Shown here piece after piece: positions 1,363-33,897 of a stretch of DNA of 64,000 nucleotides (within the stretch, counting starts at the first letter, position 1; every line of letters begins with the position of its first letter). Made by a program: the position numbers and the translations under genes. This DNA is from Botryococcus braunii. Its lineage: Eukaryota > Chlorophyta > Trebouxiophyceae. A model generated the notes under the pieces. The model had not been told where the DNA came from. It ran no database searches and was given only the letters and a program-made list of their open reading frames with translations. The stretch is from positions 114,274-178,273 of the forward strand of contig MVGU01001203.1 in NCBI GenBank assembly GCA_002005505.1, in the 5' to 3' direction.

Positions 1363-2480
1363 GTAATCATGTTCAAGGCTCTATAGTCAATACACAAACG
1401 CCAACCACCATCCATCTTTGGGACAAAGAGGATAGGTGCACCGAAAGGGGAAGTCGATGGGCGGATGAAGCCCCTCTCAAGGAGCACCCCGAAGTCGATG
1501 AGATGGCTTTGAAAAAAAGATGGGATATGGCCATTGGTGCAAGAAGTTCTCAAAAAAATCGAAAGGAAACTGGATTTTTACGAGGAGGAATTAAGAAAAG
1601 ATTAATCAGTATTCATGAATCGAGTGAAAAAATTTCTAAAAATTTTCCACAAAGATTTGAAAAAAGGGGTTGCAACTGTGCACGAAGCTCAGCAAGCTGA
1701 GCTCCGGACAGTGGATAAATGCGGGAGGCTGGAGGAACTGCACCCGGCTCCAATCTAATATAGTGGTCTCCGGCACGAGAAGGAGGCAGGCCCTGAGGCA
1801 GTCCTGAAAGGACATCTTTAAATTCATGCAGAAGCTGCTCCAACTCTGGCACGTTATATGTATTTGTATTTAAGGAGGGTTCGGTCACTGCATTAAGCTG
1901 AATCAGATCGATTGGATCACCCAACTGGACCAACTCTTCCACTTCTATGGAGGAGATCATATACTCAGGTACACCTGACCTTTGGCAGCCCACAAGTACA
2001 TGTGTCCTATCAGAATGAATCAATGAAACTGCATTTAGCTTCCAATTTACAACCGGATTAAATACAGTCAACCAAGGTTTCCCTAAAAATAAGTCATAGT
2101 ATGCCAACTCTGTGGGGAGACAGGTGACTCCAAAATCCAGAGACCCCACAGTCAGGTCAATTGCCACACTACTCTCTACTATAGAGGTCCTACCATCAGC
2201 AACACGAATAGCAACATGTGAACTTAAAGAAGCAGTGGGAAGGGCGAGCTCCTGCACAAGTTTATTATCAATAAAGTTTGCAGAGGCCCCACTGTCTAAC
2301 AAAATCCTGACAGGTCTACCAGCAAGAATTCCCTCAATTTCAATGCACGTAGAGGAAAGATCAGGACCATTCACAGTCTGGCTAGTGTTTAACTGCACAA
2401 AAGAGTCAAAGGAAGTTTCTGCTTCACACTCAAACAACCAGTCTGCACAAAGCAACGAAACAAGGGCAAGCCTGATGAGT
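1363..2480 (-). pseudogene. pol: Gypsy-A1 pol, protease to start of reverse transcriptase (distal part of split element)
   Basis: Matches bases about 32976-33905 of Gypsy-A2 on the opposite strand. Retropepsin shows LLDSGASANFID, then a linker and the reverse transcriptase entry (PEYMISSIEVEE ... FKDVLSGLPQGLPPSRAGD). The fingers motif [18 protein letters not shown] is present near 1375-1430, where Gypsy-A2 has lost 4 bases. Two interruptions: an AT-rich insert at about 1492-1672 that breaks the frame after ELRAQLQ, and Gypsy-L at 1362. Upstream the frame is cut by Gypsy-M at 2480; it continues at 17529. The rest of pol is not in the window. Confidence 0.85.
1492..1672. other. AT-rich 180 bp insert in Gypsy-A1 pol
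   Basis: Gypsy-A2 runs directly from CGTGCACAGTTGCA into GGAGCTCCTAGAGAGG. Here about 180 bp of A-rich sequence lie between the matching points. It has no LTR, no clear target duplication and no match elsewhere in the window. On the plus strand one frame reads a short lysine- and glutamate-rich stretch (about 30 codons) before a stop; I do not recognise it. Confidence 0.6.
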
Positions 2481-3989
2481 TGTGACGATATAGCAGGTGC
2501 CTGTTATACTAAGTAGCCATTATGGATTTCGAACAGAATATGTCCTGTCCGGGTGCCCTGGAGACCGGGAAGACTGCGCCCTCGAGTCGGGACTTGCGCG
2601 ATTCGAGAGGATTGTGTACTGCTTAATAAAACCCTCAATCTTGTGCCCTTTCAAGTCCCAGCCCCGCACGTGTTGGGCTGGAGTGAGACTTAGAAGGAAA
2701 TCTGCTGTTTTACACGTTGTGGGCCCGCTTGAAGGCCAGTTTTAAGGTGCAGTTCATAAGCGGCTGCTAAACAGTTCCTTGATGTTTCAGGAATCAGCTC
2801 GTACTTTCTAAAAAAGTGGTGACGTGTAATGTTTAGCGTCTCTTCATTGTGAACTTCATGTTCAGAATCTGCTTGATTTAACCAGAACTACCTAGATTCT
2901 CTTTACGTGTCAAGTGATCCTGCTTTGTGGATTACGTGGCAGCTCAGAATCAGTTGTAACCTGGGCACCAGAGGGACCTGATCCCTCTGGACTCTTCGTT
3001 CCAGCGGGGTCCTGAAAGGTCGAGAATCCCCGCGTAAGTTCGGGGAATACTATTTAAGGGCGACCAGCCGTCCTCTAAACCACGCTGTGCTAGGAAGTTA
3101 GGTGAGGGAAACCTCTGTCGTGAGTCTTTGTAACCGCACAAGTTTGAATCCCAACATTCCTACTAGCCTCGTCCGTGACCACTGCGTTAATGTGCCTGAC
3201 CGTTTGTCCTTGAATGTCCTAGTCGTAACTTGATCTACCCCACTTGTCTGTCGTAACTCGTCGCAATTGTGAAGCAACACCTCTGAAACTCAGTGCCAGT
3301 ATTGATTTGGATATCTTCTATCAAATCTTAATAGTATCAGTGAGCATTCCACCCTTTTAGCAAGAACCGAAGATCAACACCAAGATCTAGCCGTCCCACC
3401 TTCGTGCAGTAACAATCAATTTACCTGTTCCAGTACCTATAGTAATTCATAGTTTATCATATAGTCGTTCATAAATTTCATTTAACAAGCGCCGCAAGTA
3501 ATTTGGTACGAAGCCGCCACACCTAAGTCGTAACATCACGCACAGTAGTACCAACCCGGATCCTGAAAAGGAGCATCAAACCCTAACAGTAGGATTAGAA
3601 TAAAGAAGATTAACACCTTTGAAAGTGAAATATCTGATTTATAACTCCAGTGAAGTTCATACTCCAGCCGTCAACCCCCAAAGTCCGATAGCCCGGCCTG
3701 CGATAGGCCGTAAGCCGGTGACCCCGACTACAAATCCCCGACTAAAACATCCGAGACTTGAACCGCAGCAGTCTCCGATTGTAACCTCCAGCCTTCGCAT
3801 CGCACAATCGTAAGTACCAGTAATCCAGTAATCCGGTAATCCAGGTCTCAAGGCCGAATCCTTGAGTGGCGATCCGCATAATTTACCTTGATACAGAAGC
3901 CGCAGCCCAGCTATTACTAACCGTAGTTGCATAATCTCTAATTTCAATCAGAAAAAAATTTGTCTACCTTGGGTAACGGGTACCCTATA
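2481..3989 (+). repeat. 5' LTR of Gypsy-M
   Basis: 1509 bp, starts TGTGACGATATAGCAGG and ends ...GGGTACCCTATA. It matches 16007-17515 over its full length with scattered substitutions and no net length change. It does not end in the usual CA. A short tandem run of CAGTAATCC-type units lies near 3820-3842. No long reading frame looks genuine. Confidence 0.9.
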
Positions 3990-4002
3990 TGGCGATCCGT
4001 CC
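3990..4002 (+). other. Candidate primer binding site of Gypsy-M
   Basis: TGGCGATCCGTCC follows the point where the two LTRs stop matching, as expected for a site complementary to a tRNA ending in CCA. It differs from the TGGTATCGGCGA site of the other gypsy families here, so a different tRNA would be used. The tRNA was not identified. Confidence 0.5.
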
Positions 4003-4908
4003 AGGGAGTTTTAGCGCGTTGAACTAGTCAGCGCCTGAGCTCTCCGAATCTGGCCTTCTGCGCAGATTTGCCGTGTTTATAACACCACGTGAGTACCTTA
4101 TTTGCAATCAGTTGAGCTTTGTCCGCTTATAGAACTGGGTATGCCCCTTTAGGAGGGGCTTGATTACATTCCGTGTGTCGCAGGAACGACAGCAAAGACA
4201 TCAGCAACGACCGTTTGCAGCGAAACCATATATTAGGAAAGTTCAGTTTGAAGCACCCCATCATTGTACTGCAGAAGTTAGTTGAGACAATCTGATAGCT
4301 TTCAGTACTTGTTTTCTGTTTGAATATAATTGAGAAATAGTAAATACTATACCTTTGGAATCGCGTTTGCATATCTGTTTCTTTTTCGAAATCTTAGCAA
4401 CATCAAAGATCGCGGTTTCGTGATACACATCTGTGGAAATACATAATATTTCGATCTCCTCTTTAAAAGGAAGGTCTGATTTCACATTAACAGTAATTCC
4501 AGAGTTCATCTGCACTGTTTGCATTTATGAGTTGAAGGTCCGAGGTTGGCGTAACTAGCTGAATTGAGACTTGAGCTTCTGCAAATCCTGAAATACTTAT
4601 AGTTTGTTTTATCGTTTGTTGGAGAATGTAAATTATTATGAAGCTTCAGAGTACCCTGATTTGAAGGAAGACTTATCTGCAACTCCATTATCAGAGTTAG
4701 TGGGATGCCCCTTTAGGAGGGGTCTGATTACACTCCGTTTGTTGAACAGGCACCCCTACAGCCAGCTATAATAGCAGAATCCGCATTTAAGTATATATCA
4801 GTATCAACATTATCTGACATTAATTAGTATTGTTAACACTCGAGCATAACCTTTAATAGTGTGTTAGGCAATCTAGAGCACAAGACCTTGTTTGATTGAA
4901 CAATTATC
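4003..4908 (+). other. Gypsy-M 5' leader with a repeated hairpin motif
   Basis: About 900 bp with no convincing gene; the minus-strand frames here are short and unlike known proteins. Two near copies of one segment lie at 4141-4177 and 4705-4741. Each contains CCCCTTTAGGAGGGG, which can fold as a short hairpin, followed by TGATTACA.TCCG. They could be packaging or translation signals, or the edges of an older insertion. Confidence 0.5.
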
Positions 4909-5385
4909 ATGGCAGACGTGCAAGCGCCTGTACGTTTGGAATTTTTCTATGGGAAGCCTACAGAGGACCCTTTTCAGTGGTTAGAGTCTTTTGAACTTTT
5001 TATTGAGATCAACCAAGTAGTGGGTGATCGGGTTTTACGTTTTGTTAAGCATGCCATGCGCGAGGAGGCTTACACATGGTTCCGCGCAAATCAAGATGAT
5101 ATACATGACTGGGATGACTGTAAAGAGGCCTTCCTCGAACGATTTGGCCTTGATGAAGACACCCTTACGTTAAAGTTAGACACATGTGCACAACTGTCAA
5201 ATGAGACCGTTCGCAGCTACGCTGACCGATATAGGACATTAGTGGGTTACTTGCAGAACTCTCTGCCACCCAGGATGGTGACCCAGTTATTTGTGAAAGG
5301 CTTAGTGCCCCATCTTAGGGAGCGAGTACAGATGACCTACCCCGGCAATGGAGCGTTAGCCGACATAATACGTTTGGCTGCAAAC
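4909..5385 (+). CDS. gag: Gypsy-M Gag, N-terminal 159 codons (frame split by Copia-1)
   Basis: ATG at 4909 (MADVQAPVRLEFFYGKPTED) opens a Gag domain of the gypsy type: FQWLESFELFIEIN, a tryptophan-rich core (AYTWFRANQDDIHDWDDCKEAFLERFG) and VRSYADRYRTLVGYL. The frame ends only because Copia-1 enters at 5386, adding a stop a few bases later. Removing Copia-1 and one copy of its CAAAC target joins codon 159 (AAC) in frame to TAT at 12127, and the frame then runs to 15390. The protein would build the particle shell. No start further upstream is supported. Confidence 0.88.
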
Positions 5386-5755
5386 TGTTGAGTTGTGAAC
5401 ATACATTATAGAATGCCTTGTGCTTTAGGTGATCTTCAAATGTACATTATTAGGATACGGGTCCACTATCCACATGAGGTACCTCAAGACACGTTCGGAT
5501 GAGGTCTATTTCGAACATAAGGTACAATCTGATTTAGATTACGCGTTAGCGTGAAAGGACTATTAAAGCTGCGATCACCGCATAGTCGAGCAACTGGTTT
5601 GGAAAGATACTGGGCACATAAGGATGCCAGTCTTGTTCATGCAGTTGCATGTGTCTAAAAGAGCAGACAGTCGTCAAGGACTGTAGCTGGAGAGGCACGA
5701 ACTTACGACCTGTCTGCTTGCTTACAGGATACGCCACTGCCCATAACTTTTTACA
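5386..5755 (+). repeat. 5' LTR of Copia-1 (short form, 370 bp)
   Basis: Matches the 3' LTR almost exactly except that one 137 bp repeat unit plus a 196 bp spacer are missing (333 bp, the full length difference). This fits recombination between the two units seen in the long form. It contains ATAAGGTAC-like words (GAGGTACCTC near 5475, ATAAGGTAC near 5518). Confidence 0.93.
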
Positions 5756-5772
5756 GGTTATGGGCCCACGCC
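5756..5772 (+). other. Primer binding site of Copia-1, internal initiator tRNA-Met type
   Basis: GGTTATGGGCCCACGCC directly follows the LTR. Its complement contains TGGGCCCATAACC, the anticodon stem-loop (anticodon CAU) characteristic of eukaryotic initiator tRNA-Met. Use of a cleaved initiator tRNA whose 3' end lies in the anticodon arm is known for Drosophila copia, whose site has the same first 13 bases. Confidence 0.8.
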
Positions 5773-6168
5773 CTTCCAGCTGAGCCAAGGGCAGACAGGA
5801 GTGCATGGCATCATCGGATGCATCTGTACTGGGTTTTCCACGGACTCGCCTGACGGCAAGAAGAAGTAAAAAAGGAACAACTGGATATTCACTCAGAAGG
5901 CCTACGGACAGAGTCTTCAACATTTTGGGAATTTTTTTTTCCGTGAAGTGACCTGAGATTATCACCCGTCGTCGTTGTCGTGAGACCGTCAGTAGGTCCG
6001 GGTGGTCAAGCAATTGAATTGCTGAAGAATATTTTGCATATCTTGCATATTAAGGGTACATGCTAGACCTCGAAAGGGTGGAATACTTGAAAGTGCTGTG
6101 GTGCACGCCGGAAGGGTATACTTAAACCAGCTGTGTCGGGCTGAACGCTGTGAGAGCAAGTGAAGTGT
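5773..6168 (+). other. Copia-1 5' leader
   Basis: Nearly 400 bp between primer site and gag start, without a gene. The matching stretch in Copia-2 (37490-37785) is well conserved, as expected for a leader in a recently active family. Confidence 0.5.
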
Positions 6169-7959
6169 ATGACCAGACCTCAAACTCGTTCCCAAATCAA
6201 GGTTTCTGAAAGTAATCCCAGCAGTACAGAGACTATGGCAACACCAGCAGGAGGCAGCACGGCCTCCTCAGGAGCTGGACAGTCAGGACAGACCACTGGA
6301 GGCACTGCAGCCAGCTCGTATGCATACACGATGAACTCCTCCAATCCCAAGATGTCTACACAGCTGAAGGCTGATCGCACTAATTTCATTGCCTGGCGTG
6401 AAGAGCTGGAGTCTTGCGCAATGCAAAAAGGAGCAATGGGAGCGTTGGAGACAGCTATGCCTAAGACCGCAGAGAACGCAGCAGTAAAACATTTCATTTT
6501 GCAGTCTGTCCCGTCCATGTGGCACGACGAAGTCAAACAGCGGGGGAGCGCTTTTGACTTCATTCAGTGGATGGCAAACCGCTGCACTGGAGGGAAGGAC
6601 AGGGAAATCAACGAGAAGTGGATCAAGGGGCTCAAACAAGGCATGGTAAAGGGAGAGACAGTGCAAGAATGGTGCCACCGAGTCATCAGTATTGCCGCCT
6701 CCCTGGAGGCCAATAACCATCAGCTGAGCGACCGCCAGATCTGCAGGTATATGTATAAGGGACTACCTGCAGTCTTGCAGAACGACGCTTGGGCAATTAC
6801 CTCCGCCAAGTCAGACCCCTACAACATGCTCGAGACGATCCTCACTGCCATTGAGAACTTGGAGTACCAGGATATCCCGCTGGCAGAGTCAGTGCAAGTC
6901 ACAGCATCAGCTGCAGCAGTTATGGCAGCAGCAGCAGCAGCCGTGCCAGCTCAGGGTGGAATCCCTGGGCCTCCCCAAGGCGCTGGAGCTGCACCGGGCG
7001 CTGGAGCAGCACCAGGAGTGGGAGCTGGAGCACCTGCTGATGGTCAGGCCCACTATGGTCCTTCTGCTCACAACGCTGGAGGCGGGGGGCGAGGGTCTGG
7101 ACGTGGCAGGAGGCCAAAGGAGGAACTGGCGTGTCGCTTCTGCAACGGGACGGGACATTTCTGGAGGGATTGCCTGGAACTGAAGAGGCTGCAAGCTCTA
7201 CGTGGCACAATGCAAGCTGCAAGTGCGGGCCCAGCTGCGTGGTGGGGCACTGGAGCTCCTCAGCAACAAGCCAGCTGGTGGGATGCTGGCCAGTCCAGAG
7301 GAGGCCCTCCCGTGTCAACCTCACATCCTCCTGGATCTGTGTCCACTATCTTCCCCTTCTTCCCAGGCTGGCATCTCCCACCACCACCTCCTCCAGGTGC
7401 TGGTGAGCCTATGTTCGTTTCGTTGAATGTGCTTACCCCTACATCTCATGGGGCTTGCAGTACCTCGTGGCTGATAGATAGTGGTGCATCGGTGCACCTT
7501 GTAAATGATCTGTCTTTACTACACAACCCAGTCATGCATGCTCAACCCCTCCCTCTTCATTTGGCCACTTCTGATGCCAAAGGAGGGATAGTTGCAACTG
7601 GGTCTGTGTGTCTGGTCAATGCCAGACAAGAGGTGTTTTGGCTGCATAATGTGCAGTGTGTGCCCATTGCACACACTAATCTGATTTCTGTCACAGGAGC
7701 CATTCAGGATGGAGCATCATTCCTCACTGACAGTGCAGGTGGGTACACGACCATGACAGGCCCAGCAGGCTGGTCTGGTAAGATAGCCAGAGAGCGAGGG
7801 CTGTTTTTTTTAGAATGGGTGTGTCCCGTCAAGAGCCAGCATGATGCGCAGCCACAGTCCAGTCCTCATGTGGCCTCGTATCATGCCAGGAAAGGGCACG
7901 TGTGTACAGATCGACTACTGTGGCATGCAAGGTTGGGGCATCCGGGGTTAAGAGTATGA
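6169..7959 (+). CDS. gag: Copia-1 Gag-protease (ends at a frameshift before integrase)
   Basis: I start at ATG 6169 (MTRPQTRSQIKVSESNP), also present in Copia-2. Residues about 40-240 are the copia Gag (UBN2-like) region. A Gly/Ala/Pro-rich linker follows, then a CCHC zinc knuckle C-RF-C-NGTG-H-FWRD-C from residue 322 that would bind element RNA. The aspartic protease begins at LIDSGASVHLV (Asp near residue 437). The GAG-pre-integrase motif LLWHARLGHPG lies at the end. Copia-2 reads CCTGGGG where this copy has CCGGGG, so one base is lost near 7943 and the frame ends at 7959. Without the loss it would continue into integrase. Confidence 0.9.
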   Translation: MTRPQTRSQIKVSESNPSSTETMATPAGGSTASSGAGQSGQTTGGTAASSYAYTMNSSNPKMSTQLKADRTNFIAWREELESCAMQKGAMGALETAMPKTAENAAVKHFILQSVPSMWHDEVKQRGSAFDFIQWMANRCTGGKDREINEKWIKGLKQGMVKGETVQEWCHRVISIAASLEANNHQLSDRQICRYMYKGLPAVLQNDAWAITSAKSDPYNMLETILTAIENLEYQDIPLAESVQVTASAAAVMAAAAAAVPAQGGIPGPPQGAGAAPGAGAAPGVGAGAPADGQAHYGPSAHNAGGGGRGSGRGRRPKEELACRFCNGTGHFWRDCLELKRLQALRGTMQAASAGPAAWWGTGAPQQQASWWDAGQSRGGPPVSTSHPPGSVSTIFPFFPGWHLPPPPPPGAGEPMFVSLNVLTPTSHGACSTSWLIDSGASVHLVNDLSLLHNPVMHAQPLPLHLATSDAKGGIVATGSVCLVNARQEVFWLHNVQCVPIAHTNLISVTGAIQDGASFLTDSAGGYTTMTGPAGWSGKIARERGLFFLEWVCPVKSQHDAQPQSSPHVASYHARKGHVCTDRLLWHARLGHPGLRV

Positions 7960-9581
7960 CAAGGTTGGACAACGAAGACCTGGTCACTGGGATCAATGTG
8001 TCCCTTGCTCCATGCTCAGAGTGTTCTCCCCAGTGTGAGTCATGTATACAAGGGAAACATTCTCGCCCCCCCTTTCCAGCTTCCTCTAGGCCTGCAGAGA
8101 GTGTGTTAGATAGAGTGCATGTGGACACTGTGGGTCCCATTTCACCAGCTGCAATCACGGGAGAGCGTTTTTGGGTTACTGTTGTTGATGAAAAATCCCA
8201 TCTGATAGCCTCATTGGCAGTGAAGTCGAAAGAAGCCATTCCCAAGGCCCTCATTGAGCTCTTGAAGTACTGGCAGACATTTCATGAGAAAGTGGTGAAG
8301 TGTGTGAGATCTGATAGAGGGACAGAATTTCTGAATCAGCAGTTCAAAGAATTTTGTGCTCAGCAGGGCACTAAAATGGAGACCTCAGCTCCATCCACGC
8401 CTCAGCAAAATGGACTTGCTGAGCGCATGAATCGGACTCTGAAGGAGCGCACAAGGACCCTGTTGGTGCACGCTGCAGCAGACCCTTCCTTGTGGAAGGA
8501 GGCACTGGAGTCTGCCACCCTGCTGTACAACGTGGGCCCCACCACAGGCAGGCCTCTGACCCCTACTGAGATGTTCTATGGGGTAAAGCCTGATGTTGCT
8601 TCCTTGCGCACATGGGGCTGTGTGGCACATGTTCACATTCCCCCAGGTCAGCGGTCTGTATTTGGACCAAAGACCATTCCAGGCATGTTCACTGGGTATT
8701 GCCCACAGTCCAAGGCCTATAGAGTGTACGAAGGCAATGGTGTATGGAAAGAGAGCAGGGATGTTACATTCCTTGAGCATTTGAGAGGAGGGGAGAGAGT
8801 GGGTATGTCTAAGGTGCAACCTGGATCCTCTCAATGGCTCTCAGGAGCGTCCTTGCAGGGCAGGGGAGGCAATTCCAATGTCCCTAGCTCACCAACAGCC
8901 ATTCCCGTGAATTTTTGGGAAGCAGAGGATGACCCAGTGGTGGAGTGCAAGCCCACTGGATCTCCTGCTACCACTGCCAGCTCTCCAGAGGATCACAGCA
9001 GGCTGAGGAGCTCAGTCGGACCTGTGGCTGGAGCCCCCAGCAGCCAGGATGGTTCCCCTGCCACTTCAGAGACCTCACAGCAGTCATGGTCACTGCTGGG
9101 CCATCTTCAAAATTTAGCTCGGGGGGGTGCTGAAGCGCACTCGCAGCTGGACAAACTGCAGAAGATGCAGGATGGGGTCAGGTTCCAGGGGAAGTCTCAA
9201 CATAGACTTCCCCCAGGAACCACCCTCACAAGGGATCAGCGTTATGAACAGCGCCAGGCTAGGAGGGACTCAGTAGGGGTCCCCATGCATGACCCTGGCT
9301 CAGGCCAGGTACTTGTGAGTGAGCCACCCTCGGTAGGTCTCCCTGATTTGCAGAGGCAGGTTGAGACAGGGGAGGCTATGCTTGGAGAAGATGTTAGCGA
9401 GAAGAGTAGTGGGCTAGAAGTGCCAGCAGCAGGGGAAGCACGTAGCCAAGTTGAGCTGGGAACCAGTCATGCTTATGGGGTGCAGCCTGACACAGTAGGC
9501 GCAGCTCAGGAAAGTCAGAGTAGTGTACCTAGGTGTGAGTCCAGGAGAGAGAGAGAGAGCTGCTGCTTCCACCTGCATTGA
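7949..9581 (+). pseudogene. pol: Copia-1 integrase and linker
   Basis: Continues the polyprotein after the frameshift. The zinc-binding part shows C-SPQC-ESC ahead of GKHSRPPF. The catalytic triad is visible: Asp in VHVDTVGP (8124-8126), Asp in VRSDRGTEF (8312-8314) and Glu in NGLAERMNR (8421-8423). Integrase would insert the DNA copy into the genome. A long polar linker follows. The frame ends at 9581 because an AG dinucleotide run at 9546-9560 has one unit more than in Copia-2, a typical slippage change. Both lesions make this copy unable to produce a full polyprotein. Confidence 0.88.
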
Positions 9582-11398
9582 GAAAGGTGAGAGATTGTAA
9601 TGGTGGAGCGCATGAGTCTGGCAGTTCAAGAGAGAGAGTTGGGGAGGGCTCTGGCAGTTCTGGCTGTACTGCAGGATCTCAACATAAGGTACAAAATGTA
9701 CCTTATTCTGGGAACCAGGATCAGTGGAATATAAAAGACAACAGTCCGAGGAGTGCTGACAGTATTGCAGAGTCTCAGCATAAGGTACAAAATGTACCTT
9801 ATGTCAAGCTGGGAAAGGTTCACGTGCCATCTAACCTGAGGGAAGCCCAATGCTCCCCTAAGTGGGATTTTTGGCAACAAGCAATGAGGGAAGAGATGGA
9901 TTCCCTTGATACCCATGAGGTTCTAGAGTATGTGGACAGACCACATGGACAAAAAGTTATTCCTGTCCATTGGATATTCTCCACTAAAATTGATGCACAT
10001 GGGAATGTTACTCGCTTTAAAGCGAGGTTAGTTGCCCAAGGGTGTAGACAGATCCCTGGGATAGATGTTGGGGAGGTATTTGCACCCACCAGCAGCTATG
10101 GGGCAAGGAGGGCTGTGCTGGCAGTGGCTGCCACACAGAATCTGGAGATCCACCAAGTGGATATCAAGACGGCTTTTCTCAATGGAGAGTTGGAGGAAGA
10201 GGTCTATGTGACCCAACCACCAGGATTTGAGAATGGCAACACGAGGGTTGTGTGCAAGCTCAGGAAGGCACTATACGGTCTAAAACAAGCCCCACGGGCT
10301 TGGCACAAGACCTTGACCGACAAGTTGAGCGTGATGGGGTATAGTGTGTGCAAGAGTGATGCGGGTGTATACATCAGGAGGGCCCCTGATGGCAACCTGT
10401 CCTTTATTCTTGTTTATGTTGATGATCTTCTCATAGTTGCCAGATTGGTTGCAGAGATTGAGTGGGGGAAAGAGTTGTTGAAGAAGGACTTCACCATCCA
10501 TGATTTGGGAGAGGTGAATGATTTCCTGGGGTGTCAGGTCCTACGCAATAGAGTTCAGAGCACTATTTCCATGAGTTGCACTCCCAAGATTGATGCTCTT
10601 GTGGAAAAGTTTGGGGTTGCTGATGATGGGCGTGTGGTTGATACCCCCATGTCCAAGGACTTCGTGGCTAGCAGCAGACCCGAGTCCTCAGATGGTTTGT
10701 CACATGGGGCAGGTACCCCACTGCCACCTGGTCATCGGTACTGTGAGTTGATTGGATCGTTGCTATATATTGCCAATACGACCCGGCCTGACATTTCTCA
10801 GGCGGTTGGAGTGTTGTCAAGGTATAGAATGACACCCACTACCTCACACTGGAATGAGGCCATTCGAGTGCTGAAGTACTTGAGAGATACGAGAGAATTC
10901 GCTCTTACTCTGGGTGGAAAGGGGCCTGAGCTAGAAGGCTATGTTGATGCCGACTATGCTGGGGACCTGGACCACAGGTATTCCACCACTGGCTATGTTC
11001 TATCAGTCTATGGTAGTGCCGTGGTTTGGGGAAGCAAGAAGCAGAGCTCAGTTGCTACCTCAACTGTGCAAGCCGAGTTTATGGCAGCCGGCCATATTGT
11101 GAAGGAAGCCAACTGGCTTAGGGGCTTCTTGGAAGAGATTGGAGCTGCACCTTGGAGAGTCAAAATTTTCTGTGACAACCCAGGATGCATTTCCAATTTA
11201 CGGAACCCCCTTTATTCCAAATTCACAAAGCATGTTGCAGTAAGCTTCCACTATGCTAGGGAAGCTATGGCACTTGGGCAGGTAGATATCCTCTATGTAG
11301 AATCTGCTCGAAATGTGGCTGACATTATGACCAAGCCACTTGCTAAGCCCGTGTTTGTTGGTCATCGTGATTCACTAGGTTTGAGAAGATACACATAA
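9578..11398 (+). CDS. pol: Copia-1 reverse transcriptase-RNase H
   Basis: After the AG-run frameshift the frame stays open to TAA at 11396-11398. Reverse transcriptase motifs: HWIFSTKIDAHGNVTRFKAR, QVDIKTAFLNGELEEEVYV, and the catalytic YVDD at 10415-10426 (FILVYVDDLLIVAR). RNase H follows: GYVDADYAGDLDHRYSTTGY, then SSVATSTVQAEFMAAGH with the conserved Glu, and a C-terminal ADIMTKPL, the usual copia ending. The enzyme copies element RNA into DNA and removes the RNA strand. The domains look complete, but the first in-frame ATG lies in what should be polyprotein, so this part is unlikely to be made alone. Confidence 0.9.
   Translation: MRKVRDCNGGAHESGSSRERVGEGSGSSGCTAGSQHKVQNVPYSGNQDQWNIKDNSPRSADSIAESQHKVQNVPYVKLGKVHVPSNLREAQCSPKWDFWQQAMREEMDSLDTHEVLEYVDRPHGQKVIPVHWIFSTKIDAHGNVTRFKARLVAQGCRQIPGIDVGEVFAPTSSYGARRAVLAVAATQNLEIHQVDIKTAFLNGELEEEVYVTQPPGFENGNTRVVCKLRKALYGLKQAPRAWHKTLTDKLSVMGYSVCKSDAGVYIRRAPDGNLSFILVYVDDLLIVARLVAEIEWGKELLKKDFTIHDLGEVNDFLGCQVLRNRVQSTISMSCTPKIDALVEKFGVADDGRVVDTPMSKDFVASSRPESSDGLSHGAGTPLPPGHRYCELIGSLLYIANTTRPDISQAVGVLSRYRMTPTTSHWNEAIRVLKYLRDTREFALTLGGKGPELEGYVDADYAGDLDHRYSTTGYVLSVYGSAVVWGSKKQSSVATSTVQAEFMAAGHIVKEANWLRGFLEEIGAAPWRVKIFCDNPGCISNLRNPLYSKFTKHVAVSFHYAREAMALGQVDILYVESARNVADIMTKPLAKPVFVGHRDSLGLRRYT
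9683..9802 (+). repeat. Two coding copies of an ATAAGGTAC inverted repeat
   Basis: At 9684-9706 and 9780-9802 the arms ATAAGGTAC and GTACCTTAT are separated by AAAAT. Both copies encode HKVQNVPY in the linker between integrase and reverse transcriptase. Copia-2 (near 28003 and 28099) and Copia-3 (near 39184 and 39281) keep them. Half-sites occur in the Copia-1 LTR. Confidence 0.85.
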
Positions 11399-11405
11399 AG
11401 CATGC

Positions 11406-11418
11406 AGGCAAGGGGAAG
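11406..11418 (+). other. Polypurine tract of Copia-1
   Basis: AGGCAAGGGGAAG directly abuts the 3' LTR (TGTTGAG at 11419), as needed for priming plus-strand DNA. Confidence 0.8.
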
Positions 11419-12121
11419 TGTTGAGTTGTGAACATACATTATAGAATGCCTTGTGCTTTAGGTGATCTTCAAATGTACATTATTAGGATACGGGTCCACT
11501 ATCCACATAAGGTACCTCAAGACACGTTCGGATGAGGTCTATTTCGAACATAAGGTACAATCTGATTTAGATTACGCGTTAGCGTGAAAGGACTATTAAA
11601 GCTGCGATCACCGCATAGTCGAGCAACTGGTTTGGAAAGATACTGGGCACATAAGGATGCCAGTCTTGTTCATGCAGTTGCATGTGTCTAAAAGAGCAGA
11701 CAGTCGTCAAGGACTGTAGCTGGAGAGGCACGAACTTACGACCTGTCTGCTTGCTTACAGGTGCGGTGACGCAGGATGTGTATTGGTAATGTGTTCATGT
11801 TTGATTGCTTGTTTGTAAGTGAACCATCTTAGTGGACAATCAAGTCTCCCAAACAGCTAAGGGACGGAGTCTTGATTGAGTATAGGAAGGTACTTGCTTT
11901 CAGCCGTCAGGAGCTTATCCGTGTGTAGATGCTCATTGACAGATCAACATGTAACGGAACTGGTTTGGAAAGATACTGGGCACATAAGGATGCCAGTCTT
12001 GTTCATGCAGTTGCATGTGTCTAAAAGAGCAGACAGTCGTCAAGGACTGTAGCTGCAGAGGCACGAACTTACGACCTGTCTGCTTGATTACAGGATACGC
12101 CACTGCCCATAACTTTTTACA
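11419..12121 (+). repeat. 3' LTR of Copia-1 (long form, 703 bp, with internal direct repeats)
   Basis: Contains two 137 bp direct repeats, 11625-11761 and 11958-12094 (each from AACTGGTTTGGAAAG to TTACAGG), separated by 196 bp. The same two-unit form is in the Copia-2 LTR, so the long form is ancestral. An ATAAGGTAC word occurs twice near its start. Confidence 0.93.
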
Positions 12122-12126
12122 CAAAC

Positions 12127-15100
12127 TATGAACAGACCTTTGGGCATGCACCATTAGGAGGTATGTACGTTAATCAAAACACAGAAGTACCAGCACGCGA
12201 GAGAAGTGAGCCTTGGACTCGCCGCCCCATTGACAATGTGGACCAGCGAGCGCCACGCGCGCCGCAGCAGCAAAATCAAAGGGAGAACAACAGAGATAAC
12301 AGAGAAAATAGAAACTGGCCGCGTCAGCGAGATTTCCCCGAAAGGCGTAATCAGCCGCAACCAACAGCACCGCCAAAACAGATTGCACCAGCTAATCCAC
12401 TTAGGGAGGCACCTCTTCCGCCACCCACAACCGATATAAATACGCTTACCAGAGAAATGGAGAGACTCAGAATCCAAATTGCAGAGTTACAGAGGCCCAT
12501 GCCCGCCGCTAATTTTACTCAGTTTCATGAGGACCCAGCCGAAGAAGAACAGCCCCAAGTAAGGATGATGTATGATGGGTTTACTGACCCGTTCCCCGTC
12601 TACGCCACCAAAAGACCAGCCGAAAATCCACCTGAATTGGACCAGCCACTGCTACGCCGTCGGCCTAATAATGTGCAAAACACCACTGTGGACCCCAGAT
12701 CTTCAAATAGGCCAGCTACATCAGGGCCTAATGGACCTTCAGCACCAGTAAATAATCCTTCAGCTGCTGCACCACCTACGCCAGCCCCAGTACCTGCTTT
12801 TCCTAGGAGGGCACCTGCGCCGCGCCCGCAAGTCGACTTAGGGGGACTGCCACCACTTCCAGATCCTCCCCGGCCGGCGTACCGAAGACCCCCAGTTGTG
12901 CCAGCCCCTTCTAGCGAGCCAATCCAACAAATTAAAGGCTTACCTATGAAACTGACAGTACAATCCTATTTGAATCATATTAGTGAGGAGGAATTTCAAA
13001 GATCCATCCAAGAGCTACATGCGTCCCACCAACATTTCCAGCGAAGCAAGCAAACCACTTCAACACCACCAAGAGCTGCGGAGGCAGAGCTTGTAGTAAT
13101 CTCTAGGGACACCTCCGAGAGCCCCTCAGCCAGCGATACGCCCGAGGCGCCGCAAGTCCAACAGCATCTGCAACGCAATCCGATAAGCACCACCGTAGCC
13201 ACAGTCCCTATTATTCTTAACAATACTATATTTGAAGAAGGAATTATCGACACTGGAGCAACAAATACCATGATATCGCAATCTGCAGCTAGACAATTGG
13301 GCATGCTTAACCAGATCGAGCCTTGTAGACTTAAGTACTCATGTGCTGATGGCAACATGTCTGCCCCTTGGGGCATAATTAGAAAGCTACCAGTAGGTGT
13401 TGATGGATTGATATTCCCAATCGACGTTTTTGTTAGTGGAGCGACGAACTACGATGTACTGCTGGGTACCGATTGGCTCACGCAAGCCCACGCCGAGATC
13501 AGCTTTGCCAAGTCAGAAATGTCATATAAAATAGACCCTAACCTCATTGGGAAAGTCCCTATAACAGTACTGCCATCTGATAAAACTTTTAATCGTTATT
13601 GTATTATGCGGGCTCCCGTGGAGAACCTGGGAGACCCGGAGGGACCAGAGGTACCAGCACTGCCAGAAGTAATTTATTTCGAGGAGAGCGCCTCTGACAC
13701 CTCTACACCCGAGGATTCAAGTGAAGAAGAAGCCAGTAGCGAAGAGACTGCCAGTTCACCGTCTGAAGAAGAATACCCAGACCTTGTTGAGGAGCCACAA
13801 GCAATGCAAGTAGACTTTTTAAATTCCACCGCCGCCGACATCACCCTTGTAGAGGGACCATCTCTCTCGCTGCCTTCAACGAATAATACCGAAGACTGGA
13901 TGCTAGAAAAGACTATATTCAAAGACATTGAGGAGCAATTCGGCCCATTCGACCTTGACGCCTGCTGCGATCAGGAAGGCCGTAACTCTCAGTTGCCTCA
14001 CTTTTGGACACCCCAGCAAGACTGTTTGAAGCAAGATTGGACCCACAAGAACATTTACTGCAATCCACCTTTTTCAAAGGCAATGGAGATTGTGCAGCAC
14101 TGTCTCTCATGTTATAACAGCAGCCCAACCACGACGTCAGCCGTCCTTGTTCTACCATGGTGGCCTGAAGCCGCATGGTTTCCGATAGTAATGGAGAAGT
14201 TCCAAATCGTTCGACAGTATCCTCTAGGAGTGCAGCTGTTTACAGCTCCGGGACGATCCCCCAGCTTTTCTCGCACGCGTGTGGGGCCTACCCGTTGGCC
14301 AGTGATGATTGTGAAGACACCTGCACCCAACTTGACTGAAGACCCCGGTCTACAGAAATTGCCAGACATCCAAATAATTGCAGAAGAGACAGACCACCTT
14401 GAGCCAGAAGAGGTTCCCGTGGGGACAATAATTTTACCCGAGGAGCGCGAGCGCGCCCTTGGACTTGTTAAGGAGTACAGGGATGTGTTTTCCCCTGGCA
14501 TTACGCAGCAACGTACTACTTTGATGCATCATAGGATAGACCCCGGCTTGCCGCACCTTATCGCTGTCCCTGCAGAAGCAGTGGTACACCAGGACAAAAG
14601 TCTAACGGGAGTTCCCATGCAGCCTAAGTCTGCCGCAGTACAATCAGAAGTACTTAATTTACGTCTACCGACGCAATCTCGGGATGAGCATTCCCCGGAT
14701 CACCTTCAACACGCAGTAAATAGTATGCAGAAGCCTCTGATTAACAGTAGTCACAATATATCAAGTTCACCCACGAGCCCTCGCTCGTGCATCGCCCAAG
14801 AGAATTTATGCAACATAATAGACTCAGACCACTTCAGTCCAACGTTTGCGTCAGCAAAAGTAATGTGTCCTATGTTAGAATTAGTTCACTTGAAAAGTGC
14901 CCCACATGATAGTACTGGGAGTGCCATGCCTTCTTTAGGCTGGACGCACAAATGTTGTAGTGTTTTACCTAGTGTGTTTGGAATTCCCACAAGACTTGTT
15001 GAAATATTTAGAAAAGGAATAGTATTGCCCGCATTGAAAAGGTTTAAAGTAGCTTATATCACCACCGGTAGAATGCTAAAGGATGCAACCTCCCTGCGAA

Positions 15101-15390
15101 GGAAGACCATGCATGATAAGAAGCTTGCTTTAAAGGACTTGAGCCAAAGCGGTATCATGTTGGCATGTCGGAGCTGGGATTTGGATGGAATACGTAAGAA
15201 AGGATCCGCGGCACGAGCAATACAGCCCTGCGCAACTATACTCATGGACCAAGGGTCCCTGATCAACGATGGTGATGCCGCAAATGCGGTGCATTCTGAA
15301 TCACCTCCCCAACGCGCAGCAACCGACAACACACCTACAAAGTACCTTGCAGCAAGGGCGAAGTACAGGAGCTTATTCCAGGGTCAATGA
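12127..15390 (+). CDS. Gypsy-M polyprotein: Gag C-terminus, retropepsin, Dam-like N6-adenine methyltransferase domain, unknown C-terminus
   Basis: Continues in frame from 5385; the first ATG after Copia-1 is at 12163. Counted from that ATG: residues 1-290 are a Pro/Gln/Arg-rich Gag tail without a CCHC knuckle; around 355-450 an aspartic protease (IIDTGATNTMIS, then YDVLLGTDWLTQA); 500-560 acidic; about 577-720 a domain like the phage-type DNA N6-adenine methyltransferase family (Pfam Dam), with FDLDACCD near 596 and catalytic-type CNPPFS near 634, followed by VLVLPWWPEAAWF. Residues about 760-790 resemble the lead-in to gypsy reverse transcriptase (VKEYRDVFSPG). Then 270 residues without a recognised fold and no YxDD motif. 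The methyltransferase could modify element or host DNA; this is inferred from motifs only. No stop codon interrupts the frame. Confidence 0.85.
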   Translation, partial: YEQTFGHAPLGGMYVNQNTEVPARERSEPWTRRPIDNVDQRAPRAPQQQNQRENNRDNRENRNWPRQRDFPERRNQPQPTAPPKQIAPANPLREAPLPPPTTDINTLTREMERLRIQIAELQRPMPAANFTQFHEDPAEEEQPQVRMMYDGFTDPFPVYATKRPAENPPELDQPLLRRRPNNVQNTTVDPRSSNRPATSGPNGPSAPVNNPSAAAPPTPAPVPAFPRRAPAPRPQVDLGGLPPLPDPPRPAYRRPPVVPAPSSEPIQQIKGLPMKLTVQSYLNHISEEEFQRSIQELHASHQHFQRSKQTTSTPPRAAEAELVVISRDTSESPSASDTPEAPQVQQHLQRNPISTTVATVPIILNNTIFEEGIIDTGATNTMISQSAARQLGMLNQIEPCRLKYSCADGNMSAPWGIIRKLPVGVDGLIFPIDVFVSGATNYDVLLGTDWLTQAHAEISFAKSEMSYKIDPNLIGKVPITVLPSDKTFNRYCIMRAPVENLGDPEGPEVPALPEVIYFEESASDTSTPEDSSEEEASSEETASSPSEEEYPDLVEEPQAMQVDFLNSTAADITLVEGPSLSLPSTNNTEDWMLEKTIFKDIEEQFGPFDLDACCDQEGRNSQLPHFWTPQQDCLKQDWTHKNIYCNPPFSKAMEIVQHCLSCYNSSPTTTSAVLVLPWWPEAAWFPIVMEKFQIVRQYPLGVQLFTAPGRSPSFSRTRVGPTRWPVMIVKTPAPNLTEDPGLQKLPDIQIIAEETDHLEPEEVPVGTIILPEERERALGLVKEYRDVFSPGITQQRTTLMHHRIDPGLPHLIAVPAEAVVHQDKSLTGVPMQPKSAAVQSEVLNLRLPTQSRDEHSPDHLQHAVNSMQKPLINSSHNISSSPTSPRSCIAQENLCNIIDSDHFSPTFASAKVMCPMLELVHLKSAPHDSTGSAMPSLGWTHKCCSVLPSVFGIPTRLVEIFRKGIVLPALKRFKVAYITTGRMLKDATSLRRKTMHDKKLALKDLSQSGIMLACRSWDLDGIRKKGSAARAIQPCATILMDQGSLINDGDAANAVHSESPPQRAATDNTPTKYLAARAKYRSLFQGQ

Positions 15391-16006
15391 CCAAGGACCA
15401 GGTGTGCCGCATGCAGCCGTCACAACTTGGGTCATTCTGCTATCATGGATATCTCAACGAGAAATATGCAACACGTCAGCGCATCCGAGCATCAATCTAA
15501 ATGGAGCAGCATATTTGGAAGGGTTGGGATTCCCGATGTGGGAGCAATAATATCACACAGGCTTTTAGTCCCGAAAAACTGGCTTTGATCAAGCCTGTGC
15601 GCCTTCATGGTGGAAGCAATTTGAAGCATTCGAACTCTGGTGGAGGAGAATAAGTAGTCGTCTGTAGTAATTTTGTGTTTCTACAAGTGGTGTCTGATAT
15701 GCCACCATGTTGGCAAAGTTATGCATCCGCACGCAGTACATAGGTTGTACCTTATTGACCCATTCATTGCAGTACAAGAATACATTGTGACCACCTCAAT
15801 GCAAGCAAAACCCTCTTTGGGAGTCAGGATTTCCACGTGTATGAGTACTTGGCCCCTGAATTATACTTAATACCTCATGCAACATCAAATCGTACCTTTT
15901 TACCTAACAAGCTGTACCTTATGCAAGCCAACGTGCTACTTCTCGAAAAGACGTACCCAGTCTTTTCCTTCTCTTTAGGGGGGGGGGGGGGAAAGGACGT
16001 GACATA
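15391..16006 (+). other. Gypsy-M 3' untranslated region
   Basis: About 600 bp from the stop of the polyprotein to the right LTR. No gene seen. It contains several GTACCTTA-like words (near 15748, 15893 and 15918) resembling the ATAAGGTAC motif found in Copia-1. It ends in the purine tract. Confidence 0.5.
15977..15996 (+). other. Polypurine tract of Gypsy-M
   Basis: A run of G followed by GAAAGG, ten bases before the right LTR, fits the primer for plus-strand DNA synthesis. The spacing of about 10 bp (ACGTGACATA) is longer than usual. Confidence 0.6.
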
Positions 16007-17528
16007 TGTGACGATATAGCAGGTGCCTGTTATACTAAGTAGCCATTATGGATTTCGAACAGAATATGTCCTGTCCGGGTGCCCTGGAGACCGGGAAGAC
16101 TGCGCCCTCGAGTCGGGACTTGCGGGATTCGAGAGGATTGTGTACTGCTTGATAAAACCCTCAATCTTGTGCCCTTTCAAGTCCCAGCCCCGCACGTGTT
16201 GGGCTGGAGTGGGACTTAGAAGGAAATCTGCTGTTTTACACGTTGTGGGCCCGCTTGAAGGCCAGTTTTAAGGTGCAGTTCATAAGCGGCTGCTAAACAG
16301 TTCCTTGATGTTTCAGGAATCAGCTCGTACTTTCTAGAAAAATGGTGACGTGTAATGTTTAGCGTCTCTTCATTGTGAACTTCATGTTCAGAATCTGCTT
16401 GATTTAACCAGAACTACCTAGATTCTCTTTACGTGTCAAGTGATCCTGCTTTGTGGATTACGTGGCAGCTCAGAATCAGTTGTAACCTGGGCACCAGAGG
16501 GACCTGATCCCTCTGGACTCTTCGTTCCAGCGGGGTCGTGAAAGGTCGAGAATCCCCGCGTAAGTTCGGGGAATACTATTTAAGGGCGACCAGCCGTCCT
16601 CTAAACCACGCTGTGCTAGGAAGTTTGGTGAGGGAAACCTCTGTCGTGAGTCTTTGTAACCGCACAAGTTTGAATCCCAACATTCCTACTAGCCTCGTCC
16701 GTGACCACTGCGTTAATGTGCCTGACCGTTTGTCCTTGAATGTCCTAGTCGTAACTTGATCTACCCCACTTGTCTGTCGTAACTCGTCGCAATTGTGAAG
16801 CAACACCTCTGAAACTCAGTGCCAGTATTGATTTGGATATCTTCTATCAAATCTTAATAGTATCAGTGAGCATTCCACCCTTTTAGCAAGAACCGAAGTT
16901 CAACACCAAGATCTAGCCGTCCCACCTTCGTGCAGTAACAATCAATTTACCTGTTCCAGTACCTATAGTAATTCATAGTTTATCATATAGTCGTTCATAA
17001 ATTTCATTTAACAAGCGCCGCAAGTAATTTGGTACGAAGCCGCCACACCTAAGTCGTAACATCACGCACAGTAGTACCAACCCGGATCCTGAAAAGGAGC
17101 ATCAAACCCTAACAGTAGGATTAGAATAAAATAGATTAACACCTTTGAAAGTGAAATATCTGATTTATAACTCCAGTTAAGTTCATACTCCAGCCGTCAA
17201 CCCCCAAAGTCCGATAGCCCGGCCTGCGATAGGCCGTAAGCCGGTGACCCCGACTACAAATCCCCGACTAAAACATCCGAGACTTGAACCGCAGCAGTCT
17301 CCGATTGTAACCTCCAGCATTCGCATCGCACAATCGTAAGTACCAGTAATCCAGTAATCCGGTAATCCAGGTCTCAAGGCCGAATCCTTGAGTGGCGATC
17401 CGCATAATTTACCATGATACAGAAGCCGCAGCCCAGCTATTACTAACCGGAGTTGCATAATCTCTAATTTCAATCAGAAAAAAATTTGTCTACCTTGGGT
17501 AACGGGTACCCTATACCAGGACGTGACA
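16007..17528 (+). repeat. 3' LTR of Gypsy-M with 13 extra terminal bases
   Basis: Bases 16007-17515 match the left LTR. Bases 17516-17528 (CCAGGACGTGACA) are absent from the left LTR junction but repeat AGGACGTGACA found just before this LTR at 15994-16004. The host target GAGT follows directly. Either the true LTR end lies at 17528 and the left copy is altered, or an aberrant end was integrated. Confidence 0.8.
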
Positions 17529-17944
17529 GAGTAGCAGTGGGGCGAGCTCTGAACGGTGGAAGTAACGCCCTGAGCAGTCAAAACAGGGCCCGAAAGCAAG
17601 ACATCATGAGATTGCTGCCCAGTAGCCCCTTCCAACACCTGTCCACAATCACTCGGGCCAGAAAGCACAGTCAATCTGGTACCTGGCAATAATTGGGTTA
17701 TAAGTTGGCTGACAGCAGACGCTCTGTCACTACTCTGACAAAACAATACAACATGAGACTTACTTGCAGGAAACGAGAAAGACTTACTTACATCACTCTT
17801 ACACTGAACATCAAGACTGGCCGAGTCACTGTCAGGGGGTGATGTCTGAAACTTTCTACATACACCATGCCCATCCACGTAATGGGTCATGAAACTATGG
17901 CAACAGCTAGAGAAAAAGTCCTGAAGATTCCCCACGTCATGCAA
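17529..17944 (-). pseudogene. Gypsy-A1 region between gag and protease
   Basis: Matches 32558-32967 of Gypsy-A2. It opens MHDVGNLQDFFSSCCHSF and holds several Cys residues and a Ser-rich tail (SHVVLFCQSSDRASAVSQL, RLTVLSGPSDCGQVLEG). I do not recognise a domain; in order it lies just before retropepsin. The frame is cut at 17532 by Gypsy-M and resumes on the other side at 2480. Between 17945 and 18092 lies a stretch with stops that aligns with the gag/pol gap of Gypsy-A2. Confidence 0.7.
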
Positions 17945-32514: not shown

Positions 32515-33897
32515 ATGGTTTCCACCTGTCCTGCAGTCCAGTATGGGATCCCTGTATTGCACGACGTGGGGAATCTTCAGGACTTTTTCTCTAGCTGTTG
32601 CCATAGTTTCATGACCCATTACGTGTATGGGCATGGTGTATGTAGGAAGTTTCAGACATCACCCCCTTACAAGTACCTAGCTAGTCCTGATGTTCAGTGT
32701 AAGAGTGATGCAGCCTCCTCTTTTCCTGCAAGTACGTCTCATGTTGTATTGTTTTGTCAGAGTAGTGACAGAGCGTCTGCTGTCAGCCAACTTGTAATCC
32801 ACTTACTCCCTGGGACCAGATTGACTGTGCTCTCTGGCCCGAGTGATTGTGGACAGGTGTTGGAAGGGGCTACTGGGCAGCAATCTCATGATGTCTTGCT
32901 TTCGGGCCCTGTGTTGACTGCTTTGGGCATTACTTCCACCGTTCAGAGCTCGCCCAACTGCTACTCATCAGGCTTGCCCTTGTTTCGTTGCTTTGTGCAG
33001 ACTGGTTGTTTGAGTGTGAAGCAAAAACCCCTGCCAGAAACTTCTTTAGACTCTTTTGTGCAGTTAAACACTAGCCAGACTGTGAATGGTCCTGATCTTT
33101 CCTCTACGTGCATTGAATTTGAGGGAATTCTTGCTTGTAGACCTGTCAGGATTTTGTTAGACAGTGGGGCCTCTGCAAACTTTATTGATAATAAACTTGT
33201 GCAGGAGCTTGCCCTTCCCACTGCTTCTTTAAGTTCACATGTTGCTATTCGTGTTGCTGATGGTAGGACCTCTATAGTAGAGAGTAATGTGGCAATTGAC
33301 CTGACTGTGGGGTCTCTGGATTTTGGAGTCACTTGTCTCCCCACAGAGTTGGCATACTATGACCTTGTTTTAGGGAAACCTTGGTTGACTGTGTTTAATC
33401 CGGTTGTAAATTGGAAGCTAAATGCAGTGTCATTGATTCATTCTGATAGGACACATGTACTTGTGGGCTGCCAAAGGTCAGGTGTACCTGAGTATGTGAT
33501 CTCCTCAATAGAAGTGGAAGAGTTGGTCCAGTTGGGTGATCCAATGTATCTGATTCAGCTTAATGCAGTGACCGAACCCTCCTTAAATACTAATACATAT
33601 AACGTGCCAGAGTTGGAGCAGCTTCTGCAGGAATTTAAAGATGTCCTTTCAGGACTGCCTCAGGGCCTGCCTCCCTCTCGTGCTGGAGACCAGTATATTA
33701 GATTGGAGCCGGGCGCAGTTCCTCCAGCCTCCCGCATTTATCCACTGTCCGGAGCCCAGCTTGCTGAGCTTCGTGCACAGTTGCAGGAGCTCCTAGAGAG
33801 GGGCTTCATCCGCCCATCGACTTCCCCTTTTGGTGCACCTATCCTGTTCGTCCCGAAGATGGTGGTTGGCGTTTGTGTATTGACTATAGAGCCTTGA
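32515..33897 (+). pseudogene. pol: Gypsy-A2 protease and start of reverse transcriptase
   Basis: Unrecognised Cys-rich lead-in (HDVGNLQDFFSSCCHSF), then retropepsin with LLDSGASANFID and LVLGKPWLTVF, then [21 protein letters not shown] 4-base loss near 33860 (Gypsy-A1 reads KMDGGWRL there) shifts the frame, which stops at 33897. Reverse transcriptase continues in the next frame. Confidence 0.88.

Follow-up and report, generated by a model that had tools for sequence, protein, structure and literature searches.

A Ty3/Gypsy retrotransposon family of Botryococcus braunii with a predicted Dam-type adenine methyltransferase domain under purifying selection

A 64,000-nucleotide stretch of the genome of the green alga Botryococcus braunii (contig MVGU01001203.1, positions 114,274 to 178,273 of the forward strand; hereafter the window) contains a copy of a long terminal repeat (LTR) retrotransposon, in whose polyprotein a predicted Dam-type DNA N6-adenine methyltransferase domain lies between the protease and the remnant of a reverse transcriptase (RT). 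By domain order and Pfam matches, the family to which this copy belongs is a Ty3/Gypsy LTR retrotransposon with the polyprotein Gag-protease-Dam-RT-RNase H-PHD finger-integrase. It has direct LTRs, a short target duplication and the order protease-RT-RNase H-integrase, the last read from RT-bearing copies and not from the window copy. The Dam domain is under purifying selection, with omega values of 0.12-0.25 in the main comparisons. In the passages of the open-access literature consulted, no Ty3/Gypsy element was found to be reported with a Dam domain, nor any element with a PHD finger placed between its RNase H and integrase.

The Dam domain and the family that carries it

An earlier note on the window, made from its letters alone, had proposed a Dam-like domain in the frame at 12163-15390, based on the motifs FDLDACCD and CNPPFS, had placed it between a retropepsin and an RT-like stub of a direct-LTR element, and had named the lack of a significant profile match as grounds for abandoning the idea. 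The Pfam search of this frame returned a significant match to PF05869 (61.4 bits, cut-off 28.1), and both motifs were found, at 13948-13971 and 14059-14076, respectively. The neighbouring domains were also as described, with a retropepsin before the Dam domain and a remnant leading into the RT after it:

13240..13485, + strand: retropepsin (PF13975, E=1.6e-9, residues 360-441; DTGATNT at 13249-13269)
13888..14202, + strand: predicted Dam-type N6-adenine methyltransferase domain (PF05869, E=1.1e-16; residues 576-680 of the 12163-15390 frame)
14434..14541, + strand: remnant leading into the RT (nucleotide homology to the C164 element, described below, ends at 14541)
14548..15390, + strand: segment X, the tail of the RT-less form (without a Pfam match; purifying selection not detected)

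The proposed frame held only in part: it does include the Dam domain and the retropepsin, but it is not the whole frame, the start of gag lying at 4909-5385 beyond a Copia-type insertion. In the alignments, similarity among element copies in the Dam region extends to about 14319. The domain further matched the PHROG family phrog_111, 'DNA methyltransferase' (E=2.2e-18), and a chance motif match was ruled out by a shuffle control, in which the Dam proteins of phages ODay and IMM-001 scored 46.0 and 49.9 bits against the real segment and at best 9.9 and 10.3 bits against 2000 shuffled ones. A third phage Dam protein, that of KshKPC-M, gave no match to the real segment in this comparison, because it is annotated in another frame than the one that tblastn had matched; in this Klebsiella phage (L056) the coding sequence annotated as adenine methyltransferase and the Dam match do not share a frame, and the annotated protein aligns poorly. 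An AlphaFold model of the domain, made with an alignment of the domain and its relatives (A1), reached a mean predicted local distance difference test score of 82.1 and a predicted template modelling score of 0.76, and predicts alternating strands and helices; a Rossmann core is predicted from the family.

In the 176-Mb, 989-contig assembly containing the window, 72 Dam matches were found by the PF05869 search, all above the Pfam cut-off, which rules out that the domain is a chance insertion unique to the window copy. A search of the genome for copies with an RT beside the domain, as the earlier note had advised, used the RT-to-integrase part of the C164 copy as query and returned at least 47 stretches, so that the following counts are lower bounds. 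Of these 47, 31 extend from the Dam motif through the RT (18 stop-free) and eight through the integrase (six stop-free). Counted from the Dam matches, a scored RT stretch follows on the same strand, no more than 6 kb downstream, for at least 35 of the 72; for the other 37 none was present among the scored stretches. C164 is a single frame of 2001 amino acids with the order Gag-protease-Dam-RT-RNase H-PHD-integrase (domains scanned as two adjacent pieces), its LTRs differ by two mismatches in 1511 positions, and its target duplication, CTGA, was read from the flanks alone. The copies C241 (2017 amino acids) and C523 (1912 amino acids) have the same domain order as C164; LTR pairs for the C523, C241 and C235 copies were not found within the stretches examined. 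In Pfam scans the integrase was of the rve type in C164, C523 and C241, and the PHD finger between RNase H and integrase was detected with E values from 1.5e-11 to 3.7e-11 in the RT-bearing copies (L031, the C164 copy, at 7743-7859; also L033, L035 and L037). Among the 60 of 86 matches listed, this finger resembles solved PHD fingers of MLL3, CHD4, KMT2D, ATXR5 and KDM5-type proteins. The B1 and B2 copies (L019 and L033 compared to L037) look mosaic, with synonymous divergence of about 1.0 in Dam and 1.26 in the protease and of 0.14 in the RT and 0.12 in RNase H, a pattern that suggests template switching between the 5' and 3' halves.

Comparison with known systems, for which passages of the cited papers were used, sets this family apart from each of them. 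DNA methyltransferases have entered retroelements repeatedly, with Dam in DIRS elements and DNA methyltransferases of the DNMT type in dinoflagellate and charophyte elements (PMC5890265); DNMTs are present in Gypsy, DIRS and LINE elements. The DIRS1-like elements likewise encode in their pol a Dam-like N6-adenine methyltransferase domain, described as of unknown function, but there the domain follows RNase H, a tyrosine recombinase takes the place of a DDE integrase and the terminal repeats are inverted (PMC3266345, PMC5890265), whereas here Dam precedes the RT, the LTRs are direct and the integrase is of the rve type. The tyrosine recombinase model PF00589 gave no match in the genome, while the control was detected in 14 of 14 cases; together with the rve integrase, the protease-Dam-RT order and the direct LTRs, this rules out membership of DIRS. 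A single sentence in the literature treats Ty3/Gypsy and DIRS elements that encode DAM and DCM as one group, but the text just before it assigns DAM to DIRS (PMC6338049). KnitGypsy-Dnmt3 of Klebsormidium nitens, a charophyte Gypsy element with a DNA methyltransferase in its Pol polyprotein, conserved key residues and Ka/Ks below 0.2 across copies, is similar in these respects but differs in encoding a eukaryotic C5-cytosine Dnmt3 and not Dam, and a figure legend calls its repeats DIRS-like (PMC5890265). The term PHD does not occur in that paper (PMC5890265), and no C5-cytosine methyltransferase was listed in the Pfam scans of the window frame, eight relatives, C164, C241 and C523. Gypsy polyproteins of the alga Ectocarpus also carry chromatin readers (chromodomain, Tudor), but C-terminal to the integrase, whereas the PHD finger here comes after RNase H and before the integrase; in the text available, PHD is mentioned 0 times and neither of the two passages on a methyltransferase concerns Gypsy (PMC12477816). 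Sola1-1_Ec32 is a eukaryotic transposon with a prokaryote-like DNA methyltransferase of the N4-methylcytosine/N6-methyladenine (6mA) type, plus ParB, but it is a DNA transposon and its methyltransferase is a separate gene (PMC12477816). Finally, the LDACCD, FWT..DDCL.Q.W and CNPP[FY]S blocks of phage Dam proteins (PF05869/phrog_111) align with the domain in the comparisons with ODay and IMM-001; the phage proteins differ in being free-standing enzymes, and all 444 of 444 phage records fall below 60% identity, with 25-34% among the 20 matches listed.

Selection on the domain and conservation of its motif

Omega was estimated by Nei-Gojobori counting with intervals from a codon bootstrap; doubly fetched copies, L016 with its truncated Dam and 40 of the 72 copies were left out. 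For the Dam domain, omega was 0.123 (0.061-0.227) between the B1 and B2 lineages, 0.203 (0.112-0.327) among 15 A copies without detected RT, 0.180 (0.094-0.326) when the RT-bearing A copies were compared with these 15, and 0.248 (0.101-0.623) between L029 and B1. Point values, given without interval, were 0.117 for L029 compared to B2, 0.210 for three RT-bearing A copies and 0.034 for near-identical B1 copies. Among the 15 A copies without detected RT, the protease gave 0.055 and the acidic linker 0.476. Tail X provided an internal control near 1 (0.92, 0.61-1.43, 11 copies), and among the loci compared it was confined to the RT-less form, except that one B copy matched it in part (58%). Synonymous sites approach saturation between the A and B lineages, and Dam haplotype markers are common to the RT-bearing and RT-less forms, with mixtures. 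As a separate observation, a tail with a PSLGW.HK-like block, recognised by eye, follows Gag-protease(-Dam) in the window copy (14548-15390) and in the RT-less relatives P0002, P0003, P0005, P0007 and P0012-P0014, yet no purifying selection on X was detected in the 11 copies of this genome.

The catalytic-type motif is near-constant within the genome, reading NPPF in 29 of the 31 copies examined and NPPL in the other two, and D.DACCD is present in all 31. Outside the genome, P0010 and P0018 did not match the Pfam Dam model and were recognised through similarity to the window domain. P0016 and P0018 are Gypsy polyproteins spanning protease to integrase, with no gag domain listed, in which the Dam-like domain is N-terminal to the protease; they carry NGPY and NGPF, respectively, instead of NPPF, and represent a second arrangement of the domain. 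P0010 bears an RT and reads QPPI. Domain searches centred on P0010 and P0016 returned no protein other than these two and P0018. In viral contigs no recent donor was confirmed with the window domain or A1, and among genome contigs one of 17 pattern matches held up, at 36% across 44 residues of a Tolumonas metagenome-assembled genome; both were narrow pattern scans, which leave room for a viral or a bacterial donor.

The interrupted copy in the window

The LTR element of the window spans 2481-17528 and is composed as follows:

2477..2480, + strand: left copy of the target-site duplication GAGT (right copy at 17529-17532)
2481..3989, + strand: 5' LTR (1509 bp; 14 mismatches to 16007-17515 in a self-comparison of the window)
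3990..4005, + strand: probable primer-binding site, starting with TGG directly after the LTR (read from the sequence)
4909..5385, + strand: N-terminal part of gag (95% identity to residues 1-159 of P0002, which has Retrotrans_gag PF03732)
5386..12121, + strand: Copia-type element within gag, which it splits; foreign to the Dam-bearing element
12122..15390, + strand: remainder of the gag-protease-Dam frame, resuming 3' of the Copia insertion
15977..15996, + strand: G-rich polypurine tract preceding the 3' LTR (read from the sequence)
16007..17515, + strand: 3' LTR, direct repeat of 2481-3989
17516..17528, + strand: 3' terminal extension of 13 nucleotides, CCAGGACGTGACA, without counterpart at the 5' LTR

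The left flank GATGAGT and the right flank GAGTAGC are joined without a break in a further repeat copy inside the window, near 32966, indicating that GAGT is a 4-bp target duplication. The Copia insertion has its own duplication, CAAAC (5381-5385 and 12122-12126), LTR similarity between 5383-5728 and 11416-11761, and integrase and RT frames at 7845-11398 that were recognised by eye. The last 65 residues of P0002 match 15303-15497 in a different frame. Homology to the RT-bearing C164 copy ends at 14541, which leaves the window copy without an RT proper and without RNase H, PHD finger and integrase. This derivative is dead and RT-less, and it retains Gag, protease and Dam. Judged by the identity of its LTRs, it would have inserted fairly recently, moved in trans by proteins that presumably came from RT-bearing relatives.

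Two further observations concern the repeats themselves. In the window copy and in C164 (L031), the two copies whose ends were read, 13-14 nucleotides (..GGACGTGACA) follow the 3' LTR and are absent at the junction of the 5' LTR and the primer-binding site; this extension resembles the sequence between the polypurine tract and the 3' LTR, and the target duplication lies outside it. At 41383-63987 the window holds a second Gypsy-type family, with several heavily nested copies on both strands that are about 96-99.9% identical.

Proposed role, alternatives and significance

The reading that we favour is that the methyltransferase domain of this Ty3/Gypsy family serves to mark the element's cDNA or its new insertions; the methylation is the part that we infer, and we give the reading an even chance of being right. 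As Dam sits between protease and RT, the element's protease could cut the domain free, within the virus-like particle or the cell, or the domain could be active inside the particle. It would then methylate adenine at N6 in the cDNA of the element or in newly integrated copies; self-methylation of retrotranscribed DNA has been proposed for DNMT elements (PMC5890265). In AMT1-encoding eukaryotes including Chlamydomonas, 6mA is described downstream of start sites among nucleosomes with trimethylated histone H3 lysine 4 (H3K4me3; PMC12695648), and a preprint reports a similar pattern in the green alga Auxenochlorella (PMC12633428). Because 6mA thus accompanies H3K4me3 in permissive chromatin of green algae, cDNA bearing it would enter chromatin with a permissive mark, and a new insertion would resemble an active gene. 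The PHD finger, akin to PHD fingers that read histone H3, may steer integration.

Several observations weigh against this reading. In A1, motif IV is altered in seven of the 11 relatives besides the window (HPPF twice, NPTF, NSPF, QPPI, NGPY and NGPF), with NPPF or NPPY in the other four. P0011, which its source lists as jgi/Botrbrau1 and which is 88.6% identical to the C241 copy, has its Dam domain cut and the motif missing, and was left out of A1; the related Gag-protease proteins P0012-P0014 have no Dam listed, so that the domain is dispensable in at least some relatives. The A1 profile matched no solved chain of the Protein Data Bank (PDB). With regard to selection, the near-identical B1 copies give noisy omega values (1.14 for gag, 0.279 for RT), and the synonymous difference is 0.107 in Dam (15 copies) compared to 0.044 in X (11 copies), indicating that the Dam diversity of RT-less copies probably stems in part from recombination with RT-bearing ones; selection may have acted in the latter rather than in the RT-less copies. 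With the motif near-constant here and altered in relatives, the predicted enzyme looks intact in the window's genome, whereas not all members of the wider family have it.

The altered motifs speak for the alternative that Dam is kept as a non-catalytic module for nucleic-acid binding or particle assembly, in which methyl transfer is no longer needed. The seven altered relatives include the RT-bearing P0010 (QPPI) and P0016 and P0018 with their glycine, and the rest of the domain still aligns; on the other hand, the copies of this genome keep NPPF and D.DACCD at the frequencies given above with omega well below 1. We consider this alternative unlikely, though more probable than those that follow.

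Some algal DNA viruses encode restriction-modification-type nucleases, and the enzyme could in a similar manner shield element or cell DNA from nucleases or DNA viruses, a role that we find improbable. An antiviral role of retrotransposon DNA methylases has been proposed (PMC6338049), and the best PHROG and tblastn matches of the domain are phage Dam proteins. Somewhat less probable again is methylation of RNA, namely the genomic RNA of the element, instead of DNA: an RNA N6-methyladenosine demethylase-like domain described in an orchid Gypsy element (PMC9289625) implies that RNA methylation can matter to such elements, but the profile matches obtained here are to DNA methyltransferase families. 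That the domain is a passenger, captured by chance and hitchhiking without function, would fit its absence from P0012-P0014 but is very hard to credit and largely contradicted already by purifying selection on Dam as compared to tail X, and by the presence of Dam in both the A and B lineages with their near-saturated synonymous sites.

Returning to a methyltransferase that marks element DNA, the combination in one lineage of Dam, as a predicted epigenetic writer of 6mA, with the PHD finger, as a putative reader of histones, allows a further, more speculative proposal, which we hold only tentatively: the lineage might mark its own cDNA as permissive and choose the chromatin into which it inserts, and would thereby escape silencing where 6mA and H3K4me3 mark active genes. 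The family might, in addition, supply 6mA to a eukaryote without the AMT1/MT-A70 pathway; MT-A70 matches in this genome were found on two contigs. Why DNA methyltransferases enter retroelements is a question for which a direct-LTR Ty3/Gypsy family with a selected internal Dam domain offers a suitable system, with 72 Dam matches in a single genome and one or more copies that are both recent and uninterrupted. Given such a recent uninterrupted member and the conservation of the domain, the element may mark DNA, its own or that of its host, during its life cycle.
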